DNA from: Elusimicrobiota bacterium
Lineage (GTDB): Bacteria; Elusimicrobiota; Elusimicrobia; UBA1565
DNA: 40,698 nucleotides
Assembly (NCBI GenBank): GCA_016218495.1
Contig: JACRDU010000113.1
Location: forward strand, 1 to 40,698
Direction: 5' to 3'
This document shows positions 17,759 to 22,796 of the stretch, one piece after another; position 1 is the first letter of the stretch, and every line of letters starts with the position of its first letter. Both the position numbers and the translations under genes were made by a program. The notes below the pieces were generated by a model, which was given only the letters and a program-made list of their open reading frames with translations, had not been told where the DNA came from and ran no database searches.

Positions 17759-18469
17759 ATGGACGCGCTGCGCTACAAGCTCCTGCTGGTCGACGACGAG
17801 CCCGACATGCTCACCACCTACCAGGCCCTGCTCGAGGGAGAGGGCTTCACCGTCCTCTGCGCCAGGTCCGTCCCGGAGGCCTTGGCCGCGGCCCGGGAGT
17901 CCGCGCCGGACATCGTCCTTTCCGACGTGGCTATGCCGGATAGGGACGGCAAGGCCCTGGCCGCGGCGCTGCGGGCCGACCCCGCCACCGCGGCCATCCC
18001 CGTGGTCCTGATGTCCGGCACCTATAAAGAGGAGGACGACCAAGCCGGAGGCCTTGAGGCCGGGGCCGACGACTACCTGCCCAAACCGGCCTCGCCGCGG
18101 CTGCTGGCCGCCCGCCTGCGGGCCGTGCTGGGCCGGTCCCGCGCCCCCGCCGAACTGGCCTCGGTCTTGAAGGCCGAGGGCCTGCGCCTCGACCCTGCCG
18201 CGCGCATCGTCACGCGCGGGGGCAAGCGCGTACCCCTGACCCGCAAGGAGTTCGACCTCCTCACCACCTTCCTGCGCCGTCCCGGACGGGTCCTGAACGT
18301 CCCCTATCTCCTCGAGACGGTCTGGGGCTACGACCCCGCCGTCTACAACAACCCCCGCACGGTCACCGTCCACGTCTCCTCGCTGCGCACGAAGCTGGGC
18401 AAGGCCTTCGCCGCGCGCCTGGTCTCCGTCCCGGGCCTGGGCTATCGCTTCGAGACCGGCGCCATTTGA
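17759..18469 (+). CDS. OmpR/PhoB-family response regulator
   Basis: 236 residues. The receiver (1-125) has LLVDDEPD, phosphoacceptor D56 in IVLSDVAMP and the Lys in YLPKPASP. The winged helix (about 145-233) is canonical: PLTRKEFDLLTTFLRR, VWGYDPAVYNNPRTVTVHVS, and the GLGYRFE hairpin. The ATG at 17759 is fixed by the receiver start and the TATACT 6 nt before it. Divergent from the hybrid kinase gene, whose product is a likely partner. Its TGA stop (18467-18469) lies inside the first of four 11-bp direct repeats upstream of the next operon. Such repeats are the usual binding sites of this family, so it is the best candidate to bind them. Confidence 0.95.
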   Translation: MDALRYKLLLVDDEPDMLTTYQALLEGEGFTVLCARSVPEALAAARESAPDIVLSDVAMPDRDGKALAAALRADPATAAIPVVLMSGTYKEEDDQAGGLEAGADDYLPKPASPRLLAARLRAVLGRSRAPAELASVLKAEGLRLDPAARIVTRGGKRVPLTRKEFDLLTTFLRRPGRVLNVPYLLETVWGYDPAVYNNPRTVTVHVSSLRTKLGKAFAARLVSVPGLGYRFETGAI

Positions 18470-18519
18470 CCTATTCCTGACCTGCGCTTGACCCGCCCCT
18501 GAGGGCCGTCGGCTACCCT
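18466..18519 (+). promoter_or_regulatory. four 11-bp direct repeats plus -10 box: OmpR/PhoB-type promoter
   Basis: Half-sites TTGACC (18466), CTGACC (18477), TTGACC (18488) and CTGAGG (18499) at exactly 11-bp steps, then GGCTACCCT with the -10 hexamer TACCCT at 18514-18519. The repeats would cover about -60 to -22, the usual position for PhoB-like activators. The same architecture and spacing occurs at 22544-22491 on the other strand. It should drive the operon starting at 18549. Confidence 0.75.
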
Positions 18520-18548
18520 GCCTGTGGGCCCCCTCCACAGGAGGCAGT

Positions 18549-18929
18549 ATGGCGCAGACCGAACGCCCCCGCATCGTATCCGTCGAAGACGACGCCGACG
18601 TGCAGGACGTGCTGCGCGGCTGGCTGACGCCGCACTTCGACTTCATCCTGATGAAGGACGGCGAGGAGCTTCTGGAGGACATCGAAGAACTGGACCCCGA
18701 CCTCGTCATGCTCGACATCGGTTTACCCGGCCCCGACGGGCTCAGGCTGTGCCAGCGCCTGCGCCACACGCCCGGCCTGGCCGAGGTCCCCATCCTCATC
18801 TTCACCGGCCGCGACGACGACGAAGCCTTCGTCTCCTCGCTGGACGCAGGAGCCTCATCCTTCCTGCTCAAGCCCGTGGACAAGGAAACGCTCTTGGATA
18901 AGATCGAGGAACTGATAGGACCCCTATGA
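18549..18929 (+). CDS. single-domain response regulator
   Basis: 126 residues, receiver only: IVSVEDDADV, phosphoacceptor D56 in LVMLDIGLPGPDG, Thr in LIFTGR, and Lys in FLLKPVDK. No output domain, so it may be a phosphate shuttle or bind a partner protein. The ATG at 18549 has a strong Shine-Dalgarno (AGGAGG) 5 nt before it, unlike most leading genes here, and its promoter carries the 11-bp repeat array. Its TGA overlaps the next ATG (ATGA), so it is coupled to an outer-membrane protein gene. Confidence 0.93.
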   Translation: MAQTERPRIVSVEDDADVQDVLRGWLTPHFDFILMKDGEELLEDIEELDPDLVMLDIGLPGPDGLRLCQRLRHTPGLAEVPILIFTGRDDDEAFVSSLDAGASSFLLKPVDKETLLDKIEELIGPL

Positions 18930-19387
18930 GAAAAATGGCCATGCTGTGCGTCGCGGTCCTGCTGTCCCAAGCCGCCGCCGCCGCCCCCCCGCCGTCTTCC
19001 CCGGGGGTGGGCGTCGTCGTCGGAGACCCCACCGGAGGCACGCTGCGGGTCTTCCTCAACGCCGGGCAGTCCCTCGACTTCGGCGTGGGCTACAGCGGGG
19101 ACGCCGCGCTGTGGGGCGACTACACCTGGCACGACTGGGACCTGCTGCCGCGCCCGAAGTCGGGCGAGACCGAGCTGTGGGTCTCGGCCGGCCTGCGCCT
19201 GGAGACGGCCTCCGACACGGAGTTCGGGTTCCGGACCATGCTCGGCGCGTCGTATTGGCTGCCGGGCCGGCCGGTGGAACTCTTCGCCTCGGCCGGGCCG
19301 GTCTTCCAAGTCGCGCCGGACGGGGGGGTGGGGGCCGACGGCGGGGTCGGCCTGCGCTTCTACTTCGGGGGACTGGATGGGCGCTGA
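18926..19387 (+). CDS. small outer-membrane beta-barrel (BAPKO_0422/DUF3996-like)
   Basis: 153 residues with a signal peptide (MRKMAMLCVAVLLSQAAAAA). The mature part shows the pattern I associate with the BAPKO_0422-type small barrels: GVVVGDPTGGTLRVF near the N-terminus, LDFGVGYSGD, a YTWHDWDLLP turn, and LFASAGPVFQVAP leading to a final GGVGLRFYFGG strand. Probably an eight-stranded barrel; function unknown. Translationally coupled to the receiver protein before it (ATGA), and its end overlaps the next gene by 11 nt. Family assignment is from memory of the sequence pattern. Confidence 0.75.
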   Translation: MRKMAMLCVAVLLSQAAAAAPPPSSPGVGVVVGDPTGGTLRVFLNAGQSLDFGVGYSGDAALWGDYTWHDWDLLPRPKSGETELWVSAGLRLETASDTEFGFRTMLGASYWLPGRPVELFASAGPVFQVAPDGGVGADGGVGLRFYFGGLDGR

Positions 19388-19793
19388 CTCCCTGTTGGCC
19401 CTGAGCGCGACGGCGCTGCTGGGGACGGCCGGAGCCGCTGTGACGCCGGGACCGCCCCCCCGGTTGGCCGGCGAACCGCTGTCCGCGCCGGAGCTCTCGG
19501 CCGAGGAGGCACGGGTCGAACGGCTCTGGGTCCGGCGCCTGAGCGAGACCTACGACGCGGCGCCGGAGCTGGTCGCCTCCCTGCGGGGGCTGGGCCTGGA
19601 CCGCATCGACACGGAATGCGCCGTCGCCGTGTCCACCCGAGCCCAGCGCCCGATCGGCGAGGTCCTCCTACTGCGCCGGGCCGGCATGCCCTGGTCGGAG
19701 ATCGCCCACTCCTACGGCTTCGGGCTCCTAGAAGCTATCCGTCCGCCGCCGGAGGCACGGACGAAAAACACGCTCCCCGCCCTGGAACGCTGA
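19377..19793 (+). CDS. small exported protein, unknown function
   Basis: 138 residues. The N-terminus (MGADSLLALSATALLGTAGA) looks like a signal peptide or anchor. The middle has acidic helical segments (SAPELSAEEARVERLWVRRL). Toward the end, IGEVLLLRRAGMPWSEIAHS resembles a short helical motif seen in other exported proteins of unknown function. No domain recognised. It overlaps the preceding barrel gene by 11 nt, so it is the third gene of the operon under the 11-bp repeat promoter. Its end is 14 bp from the convergent regulator gene. Confidence 0.65.
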   Translation: MGADSLLALSATALLGTAGAAVTPGPPPRLAGEPLSAPELSAEEARVERLWVRRLSETYDAAPELVASLRGLGLDRIDTECAVAVSTRAQRPIGEVLLLRRAGMPWSEIAHSYGFGLLEAIRPPPEARTKNTLPALER

Positions 19794-19807
19794 CGACTTC
19801 GAAGGCG

Positions 19808-20206
19808 CTACCCCGATTCCGGGGTGCCCCGGCCGCGCAGCAGGTCGGCCACGGTCCGCCTCAGCTCCGCGGGGTCGATGGGCTTGGTCACGTACACCGC
19901 TCCCCCCGCGCCGAAAGCGCTCTGGAAGGCCTCGTCGCTGATCAGCCCGGAGAGGAACACGACGGGGACGGCGTGGGTCGCCCGCCGGCCCTTGATGTCC
20001 CGGCACAGCGCGAAGCCGTCGGTCTCCTTGAGCTGGATGTCCAGGATCAGCACGTCCGGAGCGAACGCCTCGGCCCGTCCGGCCAGGCCGTCGGGGTCGG
20101 ACAGGGCCAGCACCTCGCAGCCCTTCAGCGCGGCGCTGACGACAGCGAGGCAGTCCGGGTCGTCGTCGACGACCATCACGCGCGCCTTCCTGGTCTCCGA
20201 GCCCAT
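19808..20206 (-). CDS. single-domain response regulator
   Basis: 132 residues from the ATG at 20206, chosen because the receiver begins at once (KARVMVVDDDPDCLAVV); a start at 20257 would run into the neighbouring gene. Phosphoacceptor D56 in VLILDIQLK; the switch position is Ser (VVFLSGL); Lys in YVTKPIDP. No output domain. The gene upstream on the same strand ends at 20254, and a -10-like GACTAT or CAGACT lies 5-7 nt before the ATG, so it may have its own promoter. Confidence 0.9.
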   Translation of the reverse strand: MGSETRKARVMVVDDDPDCLAVVSAALKGCEVLALSDPDGLAGRAEAFAPDVLILDIQLKETDGFALCRDIKGRRATHAVPVVFLSGLISDEAFQSAFGAGGAVYVTKPIDPAELRRTVADLLRGRGTPESG

Positions 20207-20251: not shown

Positions 20252-20269
20252 TGTCACCCCGGGTCAGGG
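20252..20269. promoter_or_regulatory. 18-bp motif, second copy
   Basis: TGTCACCCCGGGTCAGGG, two mismatches from 17711-17728. It covers the last codons and stop of the 20254-20691 regulator gene and lies 46 bp upstream of the 20206 start. Confidence 0.3.
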
Positions 20270-20691
20270 ACCGGCGGCGGCTCGTTGATTCCCAGCCAAT
20301 ACGCCCCGAACTGGGCCACGACGGCCGAGAACTCGTTGAAATCGACGGGCTTGCGCACGTAGCTGTTCGCCCCCAGGCCGTAGCCGTCGGCGCGGTCGCG
20401 CTCCTCGTTGGAGGAGGTCAGCAGGACGACGGGCTGCAGGCGCGTGCGCCGGTCGGCGCGCAAGCGGCGCAGCACCTCGAAGCCGTCGATGCGGGGCAGG
20501 CGCAGGTCGAGCAGGACCACGGCGGGCCGCACGGCGGGGCGGGGCCCGGCGCCGAAGAGGCAGTCCAGCGCCTCGACCCCGTCGCGCGCCACCACGACGG
20601 GGTTGGCGACGCCGCACCTCTCCAGCGCGCGCCTCATCAGCAGCACGTCGTCCTCGTCGTCTTCGACCAGCAGGATGGGCTGGCCGCTCAC
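20254..20691 (-). CDS. single-domain response regulator (Rcp1-like)
   Basis: 145 residues from a GTG at 20691 that overlaps the kinase stop (GTGA). Receiver features: ILLVEDDEDDVLLMRRAL, phosphoacceptor D62 in VVLLDLRLPRIDG, Thr in VVLLTSS, Lys in YVRKPVDF. The opening and aromatic end (FGAYWLGINEPPP) are typical of Rcp1-type regulators. It is translationally coupled to the ethylene-receptor-like kinase and is almost certainly its phosphate acceptor. No output domain, so the downstream target is not visible. Confidence 0.93.
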   Translation of the reverse strand: MSGQPILLVEDDEDDVLLMRRALERCGVANPVVVARDGVEALDCLFGAGPRPAVRPAVVLLDLRLPRIDGFEVLRRLRADRRTRLQPVVLLTSSNEERDRADGYGLGANSYVRKPVDFNEFSAVVAQFGAYWLGINEPPPVPDPG

Positions 20692-22169
20692 CGCTCCCCC
20701 TCGGGCTCCAGCGTGAAAAAGAACGCAGCGCCCCGATTGACGGCGCCCTCGGCCCACATCCGTCCGCCGTGACGCTGCACGATGCGCTGGGCGGTGGCCA
20801 GGCCGATGCCGCTGCCCGGGAACTCGCCGGGGCGGTGCAGGCGCTCGAAGGGGCTGAACAGGCGCCTGGCATAGGCCGGGTCGAAGCCGGCTCCGTCGTC
20901 GCGGACGAAATAGACGGCGGGCCCCGGACCGCGCAGCACGCCGAACTCGATGCGCGCCCGGGGACGGCGGCCCGTGAACTTCCAGGCGTTCCCGAGCAGG
21001 TTCTCCATCACGTCCTTGAGCAGCCGTGGGTCGGCCTGGACCATGACGCCGTCGGCTACGACCAGCTCGACCTTGCGCGCGGGGTCGCCCTCGCGCAGGC
21101 CCTCGGCGACGGAGCGCGCCAGCGCGCCGAGGTCGACCTCCTCCCGGCGCGGCTCGGCCCGCGCCACCCGCGCCAGGTTCAGCAGGGCGTCGATGAGCTG
21201 GGCCATCGTCTGGCTGGCCCTGCGCAGCCGCTGCAGGAAGTCCGTGCCCTGCGCGTCGAAGCGCCCCCCGTAGTCGTCGAGCAGGGCCTGGCTGTAGGCG
21301 TCTATCTTGCGCAGCGGGGCGCGCAGGTCGTGGGCCACCGAATAGCTGAAGGTCTCCAGCTCCTTGTAGGCCGCGTCGGCGTCGGCCATGCTGCGGCGCA
21401 GGGCGGCCTCGGTCTCCTTGCGCGCGCTGATGTCCCGGACCGCGCTCAGCGCGAACGCCCCGCGCCCGGTCTTGAGCGGGCTCAGGCTTATCTCCACCGG
21501 AAACTCCGAGCCGTCCTTGCGCCGGCCGAAGAGCTCCATCCCCGCGCCCATCGGGCGCTGGCGCGGCTCGCCGAAGTAGCCGGCGCGGTGCGCGACATGC
21601 CCCTGCCGGAAGCGCTCGGGCATCAGCAGCTCCACGGGGCGGCCGAGGAGCTCGCCGCGCGCGTAGCCGAACAGGCGTTCGACCTGGGAGTTGAGGTCGC
21701 AGACGGCGCCGCCGCCGTCCACCAGCACCATGGCGTCCGGAGCGGACTCCAGCAGCACGCGGAAGCGCGTCTCGCTCTCGGAGAGGTCCTGGGGGCTGGG
21801 CAACGCCAGGGCCTTCGGCATCAGACGCACCAGCAGGACGGCGGTGGTCAAAGAGACCGCGGCGGTGAAGGCCTTGACCAGGCCGGAGGCCCAGTAGTCG
21901 GGATGCCAGAGGGTCCAGACCTCCATGACATGGGTGGCCCCGCAGGCGGTGATGAACAGCCCGAAGCAGAGGAAGATCCACGGGAACGGCAGGTCGCGGC
22001 GCCGCCGGACGAAGTAGGCCAAGGTGAACGGGATGCTCAGGTAGGCCCCGGCGATGAGGACGTCGCTGGCCACGTGGAGGCGGACCAGGCCCGGGTCCCA
22101 CAGGTAGCAGTGCCCGTGGGGCATCATCCCGGCGGTGGAGAAAGCGGACATGGGAGTCCATTTTGCCAC
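20688..22169 (-). CDS. ethylene-receptor-like sensor histidine kinase (ETR1-type domain, PAS, HisKA, HATPase)
   Basis: 493 residues from a GTG; the ATG at codon 7 is an alternative with CAAAAT 8 nt before it. Three N-terminal TM helices (about 30-55, 62-86, 95-117) match the copper/ethylene-binding domain of plant ETR1. D36, Y43, I46, P47, I73, C76, H80 and W85 correspond to ETR1 D25, Y32, I35, P36, I62, C65, H69 and W74, all with the same offset of 11. The Cu(I) ligands are Cys and His of CGATH. A PAS domain (about 131-250), HisKA with H280 (SVAHDLRAPLRK) and HATPase_c (ENLLGNAWKF, RDDGAGFD, GSGIGLA) follow. Related domains occur in cyanobacterial ethylene sensors. Coupled to an Rcp1-like regulator. 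Confidence 0.93.
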   Translation of the reverse strand: MAKWTPMSAFSTAGMMPHGHCYLWDPGLVRLHVASDVLIAGAYLSIPFTLAYFVRRRRDLPFPWIFLCFGLFITACGATHVMEVWTLWHPDYWASGLVKAFTAAVSLTTAVLLVRLMPKALALPSPQDLSESETRFRVLLESAPDAMVLVDGGGAVCDLNSQVERLFGYARGELLGRPVELLMPERFRQGHVAHRAGYFGEPRQRPMGAGMELFGRRKDGSEFPVEISLSPLKTGRGAFALSAVRDISARKETEAALRRSMADADAAYKELETFSYSVAHDLRAPLRKIDAYSQALLDDYGGRFDAQGTDFLQRLRRASQTMAQLIDALLNLARVARAEPRREEVDLGALARSVAEGLREGDPARKVELVVADGVMVQADPRLLKDVMENLLGNAWKFTGRRPRARIEFGVLRGPGPAVYFVRDDGAGFDPAYARRLFSPFERLHRPGEFPGSGIGLATAQRIVQRHGGRMWAEGAVNRGAAFFFTLEPEGER

Positions 22170-22207
22170 AATCCGGGGGGCGCTTGGGATAGCCCTGGCG
22201 GCCCATT

Positions 22208-22468
22208 TCAGCGGAAGCGGGGCCTCTTGGGGAGATTGAGCCGTCGCCGCGGCTCAGCCTGCGGCTGGGCCTGCTGGGCTGGTTGGGCCGGGACGATGAC
22301 CGTGCTCGTCCGGTCCCCATACCACCAGTACGGGTACATCCCCGCATACGGCCACGGCTCATGGACGTAGTGGTGGACCACCGCCGCCTGGTCCGCCGAG
22401 CGCGGCGCGGGACCCGCACAACCCGCCACGGCGCACAGGACCGTCAACGCCAGGACGATGGCGGTCAT
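22208..22468 (-). CDS. small lipoprotein, unknown function
   Basis: 86 residues. Clear lipoprotein signal: MTAIVLALTVLCAVAGC, with the modified Cys at 17 in a VAGC lipobox. The mature part is rich in Tyr, Trp and Pro (VHHYVHEPWPYAGMYPYWWY), then Gln/Ala/Pro-rich with a basic end (RRRLNLPKRPRFR). Probably anchored in the outer or inner membrane. The ATG has a Shine-Dalgarno (GGGAGGGAATCC before the ATG), and the promoter shows the four-repeat array. The ethylene-receptor-like kinase gene follows 38 bp downstream and may be transcribed from here. Confidence 0.8.
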   Translation of the reverse strand: MTAIVLALTVLCAVAGCAGPAPRSADQAAVVHHYVHEPWPYAGMYPYWWYGDRTSTVIVPAQPAQQAQPQAEPRRRLNLPKRPRFR

Positions 22469-22490
22469 GGATTCCCTCCCTGCTCCCCAA

Positions 22491-22544
22491 AGGGTAGCCC
22501 TTGCCGGTCAAACAACGCTCAACGCGGCGTCAAGGAAGCGTCAA
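22491..22544 (-). promoter_or_regulatory. four 11-bp direct repeats plus -10 box: second copy of the OmpR/PhoB-type promoter
   Basis: Read on the minus strand from 22544: TTGACG, TTGACG, TTGAGC, TTGACC at exactly 11-bp steps, then GGCTACCCT (-10 hexamer at 22496-22491). The last half-site starts 15 nt before the hexamer, identical to 18466-18519. Drives the lipoprotein gene at 22468 and perhaps the kinase gene after it. Confidence 0.75.
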
Positions 22545-22619
22545 GTCCCCAACAACCTAGGTCCAAAGACCCGGACACGGATGTCCCAAAAGAACCTATC
22601 AAGCGGGCGGGGTTTGGGT

Positions 22620-22625
22620 TAGGAT
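22620..22625 (+). promoter_or_regulatory. -10-like box of a predicted leaderless promoter
   Basis: TAGGAT, AAGGGA (6 nt), ATG at 22632. Confidence 0.45.
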
Positions 22626-22631
22626 AAGGGA

Positions 22632-22796
22632 ATGTATACGACCCTGACCTCCAGATTTCCCCGCGCGAAGAGCACCTGGCTGGAGACCCTGCGCCCCCAG
22701 ATGGACTTATCGGCCTCCCGGCGTTCGACGGTATTCGTGCCGCGCATCCAGCGCAAGCACCCGCTCAAGTCGAAGCTGAGCGGAATCGTGTACTGA
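22632..22796 (+). CDS. 54-aa basic small protein, unknown
   Basis: A short ORF (starts MYTTLTSRFPRAKSTWLETL, ends SKLSGIVY) with ten Arg/Lys residues and no TM segment. Reasons to accept it: the ATG sits exactly 6 nt after a -10-like TAGGAT, as in other leading genes here, and the next gene starts 11 bp after its stop without a promoter or ribosome-binding site of its own. No homologue recognised. It could also be a leader peptide for the downstream operon. Confidence 0.45.
   Translation: MYTTLTSRFPRAKSTWLETLRPQMDLSASRRSTVFVPRIQRKHPLKSKLSGIVY

Follow-up and report, generated by a model that had tools for sequence, protein, structure and literature searches.

This locus raises the question of whether two promoters that lie 4 kb apart on opposite strands, and that carry the same four direct repeats ahead of the same hexamer, are controlled by one protein, and if so by which. 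The window (the whole stretch of 40,698 nucleotides from an Elusimicrobiota bacterium analysed here) contains promoter 1 at positions 18466-18519 of the plus strand and promoter 2 at 22544-22491 of the minus strand. Operator array 1 (18466-18504, plus) consists of the half-sites TTGACC (18466-18471), CTGACC (18477-18482), TTGACC (18488-18493) and CTGAGG (18499-18504), and array 2 (22506-22544, minus) of TTGACG (22544-22539), TTGACG (22533-22528), TTGAGC (22522-22517) and TTGACC (22511-22506). The half-site consensus in both promoters is YTGAS, in four copies at exact 11-bp steps. The start of the fourth half-site lies in each case 15 nt upstream of TACCCT, the putative -10 element (18514-18519, plus; 22491-22496, minus), which at promoter 1 has the same phase as in relatives, and GGCTACCCT, which follows array 2, is identical to the corresponding stretch at promoter 1. 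The first-pass annotation of this DNA had listed the half-sites of promoter 2 correctly to the base, and its 15-nt spacing in both promoters and nine bases common to them agree with the coordinates found here. It had also given both downstream genes a leader and a Shine-Dalgarno sequence; short leaders with the Shine-Dalgarno-like sequences GGGAGGG and AGGAGG were found before the ATGs at 18549 (plus) and 22468 (minus). A terminator-like call inside array 2 was rejected as a by-product of the repeats.

Direct, not inverted, repeats with a period of about 10-11 bp upstream of the -10 element characterize the operators of OmpR/PhoB-family response regulators, and both arrays are of this form. 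Escherichia coli PhoB binds head-to-tail on 11-bp direct repeats just upstream of the -10 element, replacing the -35 box. Its pho boxes resemble the window arrays as 11-bp direct repeats in the place of the -35 box, but the half-site in the window is TTGAC(C/G), not CTGTCAT, and no phosphate genes were seen among the targets. The PhoP boxes of Bacillus subtilis (TTnACA-type half-sites with a 5-bp gap) share the half-site type and the period of 11 with the window arrays, although the phylum and the targets are different. Full-length PhoP of Mycobacterium tuberculosis, of the same family as the response regulator encoded in the window, recognizes direct repeats whose 7-bp motif and 4-bp spacer add up to a period of 11 bp, as a tandem dimer that extends to trimers and tetramers (PMC4832192); its half-site sequence differs, the window regulator has T where PhoP has E215, and the likeness is at the family level. 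E. coli KdpE has the same fold and direct half-sites, but these are AT-rich, TTTA(T/C)A, and the target is a potassium pump (PMC3264566). Judged from the sequence, the layout in the window matches a response regulator of the OmpR/PhoB family docking head-to-tail instead of a -35 box.

The most likely regulator is encoded at 17759-18469 (plus), directly upstream of promoter 1. In the proposed mechanism, this protein, when phosphorylated, would bind head-to-tail with up to four protomers on the four half-sites, whose 11-bp spacing is one helical turn; the bound regulator would take the place of the -35 box, leaving about 9 bp between it and the -10 element, and would recruit RNA polymerase. Two transcription units would be activated in this way, the receiver/outer-membrane operon that immediately follows the regulator's own gene and, 4 kb away on the opposite strand, the lipoprotein gene. 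We assign a probability of about 0.8 to the reading that a single OmpR/PhoB-family response regulator, in all likelihood that at 17759-18469, has both arrays as its operators, binds head-to-tail when phosphorylated and activates both promoters; binding, dependence on phosphorylation and activation rather than repression are what we infer from the sequence. The same protein might instead bind and repress by blocking polymerase, since the array covers the -35 region and ends so close to the -10 element, but we consider this unlikely: the array hides no usable -35 box (the TTGAS units closest to the -10 element are 9 and 20 bp away from it) and no sigma-70-type promoter was called at promoter 2, so that the promoter is expected to be weak when unaided; PhoB, moreover, activates from a comparable position.

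The protein at 17759-18469 has a receiver followed by a Trans_reg_C winged helix (PF00072 and PF00486, both above the curated cut-offs), as expected of the OmpR/PhoB family, and the recognition helix NNPRTVTVHVSSLRTKLG. Its best NCBIfam match is PhoB, but with 168.1 bits against the TIGR02154 cut-off of 296.2 it is not PhoB by the curated rule; against NF007546 it scores 129.8, with a cut-off of 471. No phosphate-related sites were recognized among the sites listed in the window's own genome (G000, 4.15 Mb). The nearest relatives of the protein that have named records come almost entirely from Elusimicrobia/Elusimicrobiota or from MAGs labelled only as bacterium. The gene looks leaderless, with TATACT 6 nt upstream of its ATG, and it ends in a TGA stop codon that falls within half-site 1 (TTGACC) of promoter 1.

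Arrays of this kind recur beside related genes across the phylum. The 122-nt flanks at the stop codons of 72 related response regulator genes, analysed with no motif assumed, contain 23 three-unit repeats of period 11 where 2.0 are expected, and five perfect repeats of this period where none is expected, whereas the other periods from 8 to 15 are near expectation. A motif-guided caller found 41 arrays in 140 non-redundant flanks (0.6 expected). TAnnnT hexamers near these arrays favour one phase, with 29 at a distance of 4 modulo 11 and 10 in the next phase, and in the favoured phase their usual distance from the first half-site is 48 nt, the value seen in the window. The half-sites themselves differ by clade: the clade of the window and a second clade have TTGAC, several lineages have TTGAG, and one large clade has TTAAG. 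The called arrays indicate that the geometry is kept while the half-site sequence changes across Elusimicrobiota.

For the comparison of recognition helices with half-sites, we used as the alignment reference RTVDVHIRRLR, which we take to be the helix of PhoB; the varying positions correspond to D196 and R201. Where residue 201 is H or R, base 3 is A in 12 of 14 cases, and where it is S, T or N, base 3 is G in 26 of 27; base 5 is C in 17 of 20 cases with a non-acidic residue at 196 and in 1 of 21 with an acidic one. The Fisher values (1e-7 and 1e-8) overstate this covariation, since the counts are non-independent, sharing phylogeny, and on the tree residue 196 seems to have changed independently only about twice and residue 201 about once. 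Regulator and half-site appear to have changed together across the phylum, in a covariation that is partly phylogenetic. Departures are locus L136, where a helix with H/E stands beside a weak TTGAC-like array, and L220, with Q and TTCAG. In PhoB, R201 contacts bases and D196 is reported not to, but the 196 position is implicated in KdpE, where R193 at this position is needed for DNA binding, and in PhoP (PMC3264566). When PhoP is bound to DNA in the published structure, the C that pairs with the G of TCACAGC is contacted by E215, and the 5' part of the motif by Y220 (PMC4832192); therefore both residues sit where the covariation puts them, in a register (TCACAGC aligned with TTAAGC) that is our own alignment. 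The E215 contact fits the occurrence of E with TTGAG or TTAAG in Elusimicrobiota.

The arrays could still be the operators of a different OmpR-family regulator of the same genome, their overlap with the gene at 17759-18469 being positional only. G000 has 29 Trans_reg_C matches, weaker CTGAC arrays elsewhere in it may belong to another regulator, and several arrays in genome G004 have no identified regulator with a fitting helix. This reading is nevertheless improbable, because such arrays are recurrently linked to this regulator family, and the helix residues of the linked regulator fit the TTGAC half-site while no other helix read in G000 does. Among the helices readable in G000, which do not include that of every match, only the protein at 17759-18469 has T and S at the positions of PhoB 196 and 201. 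It is this agreement of linkage and helix, together with the lack of the same two residues in any other readable helix, for which we name it as the regulator; the first-pass annotation had proposed none. In G004 (loci L067-L073), several TTGAG or GTGAG arrays stand before receivers and other genes.

The TTGAC units might also be taken for repeated -35 elements of the housekeeping sigma factor, as TTGAC is the core of the sigma-70 hexamer TTGACA. We find this very improbable, and rejected TTGAC as a -35 element: the spacers to the -10 element are 9 and 20 bp, with none at 16-18 bp, so the nearest units cannot serve in this way; sigma has no need of four copies at an exact helical period; and other clades hold TTGAG or TTAAG at the same positions, in step with the regulator. 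No sigma-70 promoter with its own -35 element (TTGACA-like, 16-18 bp from the -10) was called in 22000-22700, and the single call in 18350-20000 (18877-18904) lies away from promoter 1.

G000 was searched genome-wide with patterns, the matrix scan being applied to the window. Three half-sites followed by TAnnnT, with no mismatch, occur at exactly two places in the whole genome, promoters 1 and 2, where word frequencies predict about 0.0003 matches; four half-sites with no mismatch again give exactly these two. Many random matches, which the first-pass annotation had named as the main result that would speak against its proposal, did not appear in this pattern search. A similar four-unit pattern with up to three mismatches gives 5, 11 and 9 matches in G001, G002 and G004, overlapping registers of one site being counted separately, and none with a reversed control. 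A matrix from seven promoters of G001 and G002, located with the window-derived pattern but in other species, scores the two window sites at 39.4 and 29.6 and the next-best window position at 5.0; in random third-order Markov sequence it yields 0.5 hits per Mb at 12 or more and none at 14 or more. That the two promoters are unrelated and alike by chance, as short and degenerate half-sites might allow, is refuted by these match statistics, by recovery of both sites with a matrix from other species and by conservation of the arrays in orthologous promoters, and its probability is negligible.

Promoter 1 is followed by a gene for a stand-alone receiver domain protein (18549-18929, plus; PF00072), and receivers follow the array in relatives as well. 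The start of the next gene (18926-19387, plus) overlaps the receiver stop; it encodes a small exported protein with a signal peptide, probably an outer-membrane protein (the barrel was read by eye), which had no Pfam or NCBIfam match. Behind promoter 2 is the gene of an 86-aa lipoprotein-like protein (22208-22468, minus) with homologs in G001, G002 and G003. The array and the receiver are in the same place in G001, where the regulator stop again overlaps half-site 1, and about 0.5 kb behind the regulator gene in G002. G003 has the two genes in reverse order, the receiver first and the regulator second, with an equally spaced array upstream of the receiver; thus, the array belongs to the receiver promoter and not to the 3' end of the regulator gene as such. 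The lipoprotein homologs of G001 and G003 keep two half-sites and the 15-nt spacing, the half-sites of both the lipoprotein and the receiver in G003 being only loosely TTGAC-like. Many close orthologs of the regulator gene have no clear array at the 3' end. At L108, L112, L219, L225 and L247, for example, a receiver again follows the regulator behind variant repeats; the 3' flanks of these and of L224 carry a TTTGGC/TTTGGT array of 11-bp period, which is followed by a receiver gene and accompanied by T at position 201 (PhoB numbering).

Since orthologous promoters keep the array and its spacing, and the two sites are the sole full matches in G000, the regulon that the first-pass annotation proposed, with the receiver/outer-membrane operon and the lipoprotein gene as members, is supported. 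Its extension to the ethylene-receptor-like histidine kinase (20688-22151, minus; ETR1_N, PAS, HisKA and HATPase_c by Pfam) is unproven: the gap between the lipoprotein and kinase genes is about 57 nt with no terminator called by prediction, and the kinase is possibly on the lipoprotein transcript and co-regulated. A stand-alone receiver (20254-20691, minus) follows the kinase and overlaps its end, and the pair spans 20254-22151.

In one branch of the phylum, beside some regulators with the helix PHTVEVHISNLR or PHTVESHISSLR, the array appears to drive a structured RNA. This small RNA is C-rich, with a long outer stem, a CCCCCCTAACCC loop and four pairs with changes on both sides, and it often occurs in two tandem copies (copies at L159:7207-7310, L160:6872-6976, L166:2899-3003, L170:7204-7307, L172:3882-3985 and L176:1295-1400; loci L333-L362). 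A covariance model built from the RNA bodies only matches 33 of 248 Elusimicrobiota genomes, all of one family (f5), and finds no copy in the window's family among these genomes, nor in G000. The promoters of the RNA served as a held-out check of the residue rule: TTGAG/TTGAA arrays, expected under the rule for an acidic residue at 196, stand in 11 of the 12 that could be read, and every one of these has a TAnnnT at the usual phase. The RNA had no Rfam match at gathering scores, and RAGATH-26, with 18.1 bits where its gathering score is 86.3, was rejected as a chance hit. A C-rich, small-RNA-like stretch at about 22590-22625 (minus), upstream of the lipoprotein promoter, was dropped, as the RNA model matches nothing in G000. 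In other Elusimicrobiota, a CsgG-like secreted protein (PF03783) is encoded behind the regulator-linked array (L131:5674, L137:5686, L144:5694 and L169:2375). The start region of its gene is extended, GGAGGGG(G)T(T)ATG, and the run of G might base-pair with the small RNA at its C-rich loop.

One possible generalization, to which we give even odds, is that the linked regulator-operator pairs of the phylum represent a natural specificity code of the OmpR/PhoB family, in which residues 196 and 201 set bases 5 and 3, the period and the distance to the -10 element are fixed, and one branch controls the structured small RNA in place of a protein. The kind of system is already known, and what is unusual is the clarity of the operator-regulator pairs across the phylum; no promoter studies in Elusimicrobiota were found in the limited literature collection. 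With the operator touching the regulator gene or close to it, matched pairs are available from many genomes, so that DNA recognition by the OmpR/PhoB family can be tested as a natural variant series, and in Elusimicrobiota sequence by itself is enough to name a regulator along with its regulon. If the proposed code is true, the specificity of such regulators would be readable from their sequence.

The regulon may be wider than the two promoters of the window. In G002 the sites precede the receiver and several exported proteins, including a barrel protein (PF13505) and a lytic transglycosylase (PF01464), which suggests a regulon with an envelope theme. In G000, weaker four-unit CTGAC sites (C92:6197, C92:11191, C120:5434 and C109:1597) precede short genes for prepilin-like, XRE-like and exported proteins, and their spacing to a -10-like hexamer is similar to that of the window arrays. 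Three of the four have AATC between units 1 and 2, and the fourth is similar; for this reason they may belong to another regulator, and perhaps form a sister regulon.
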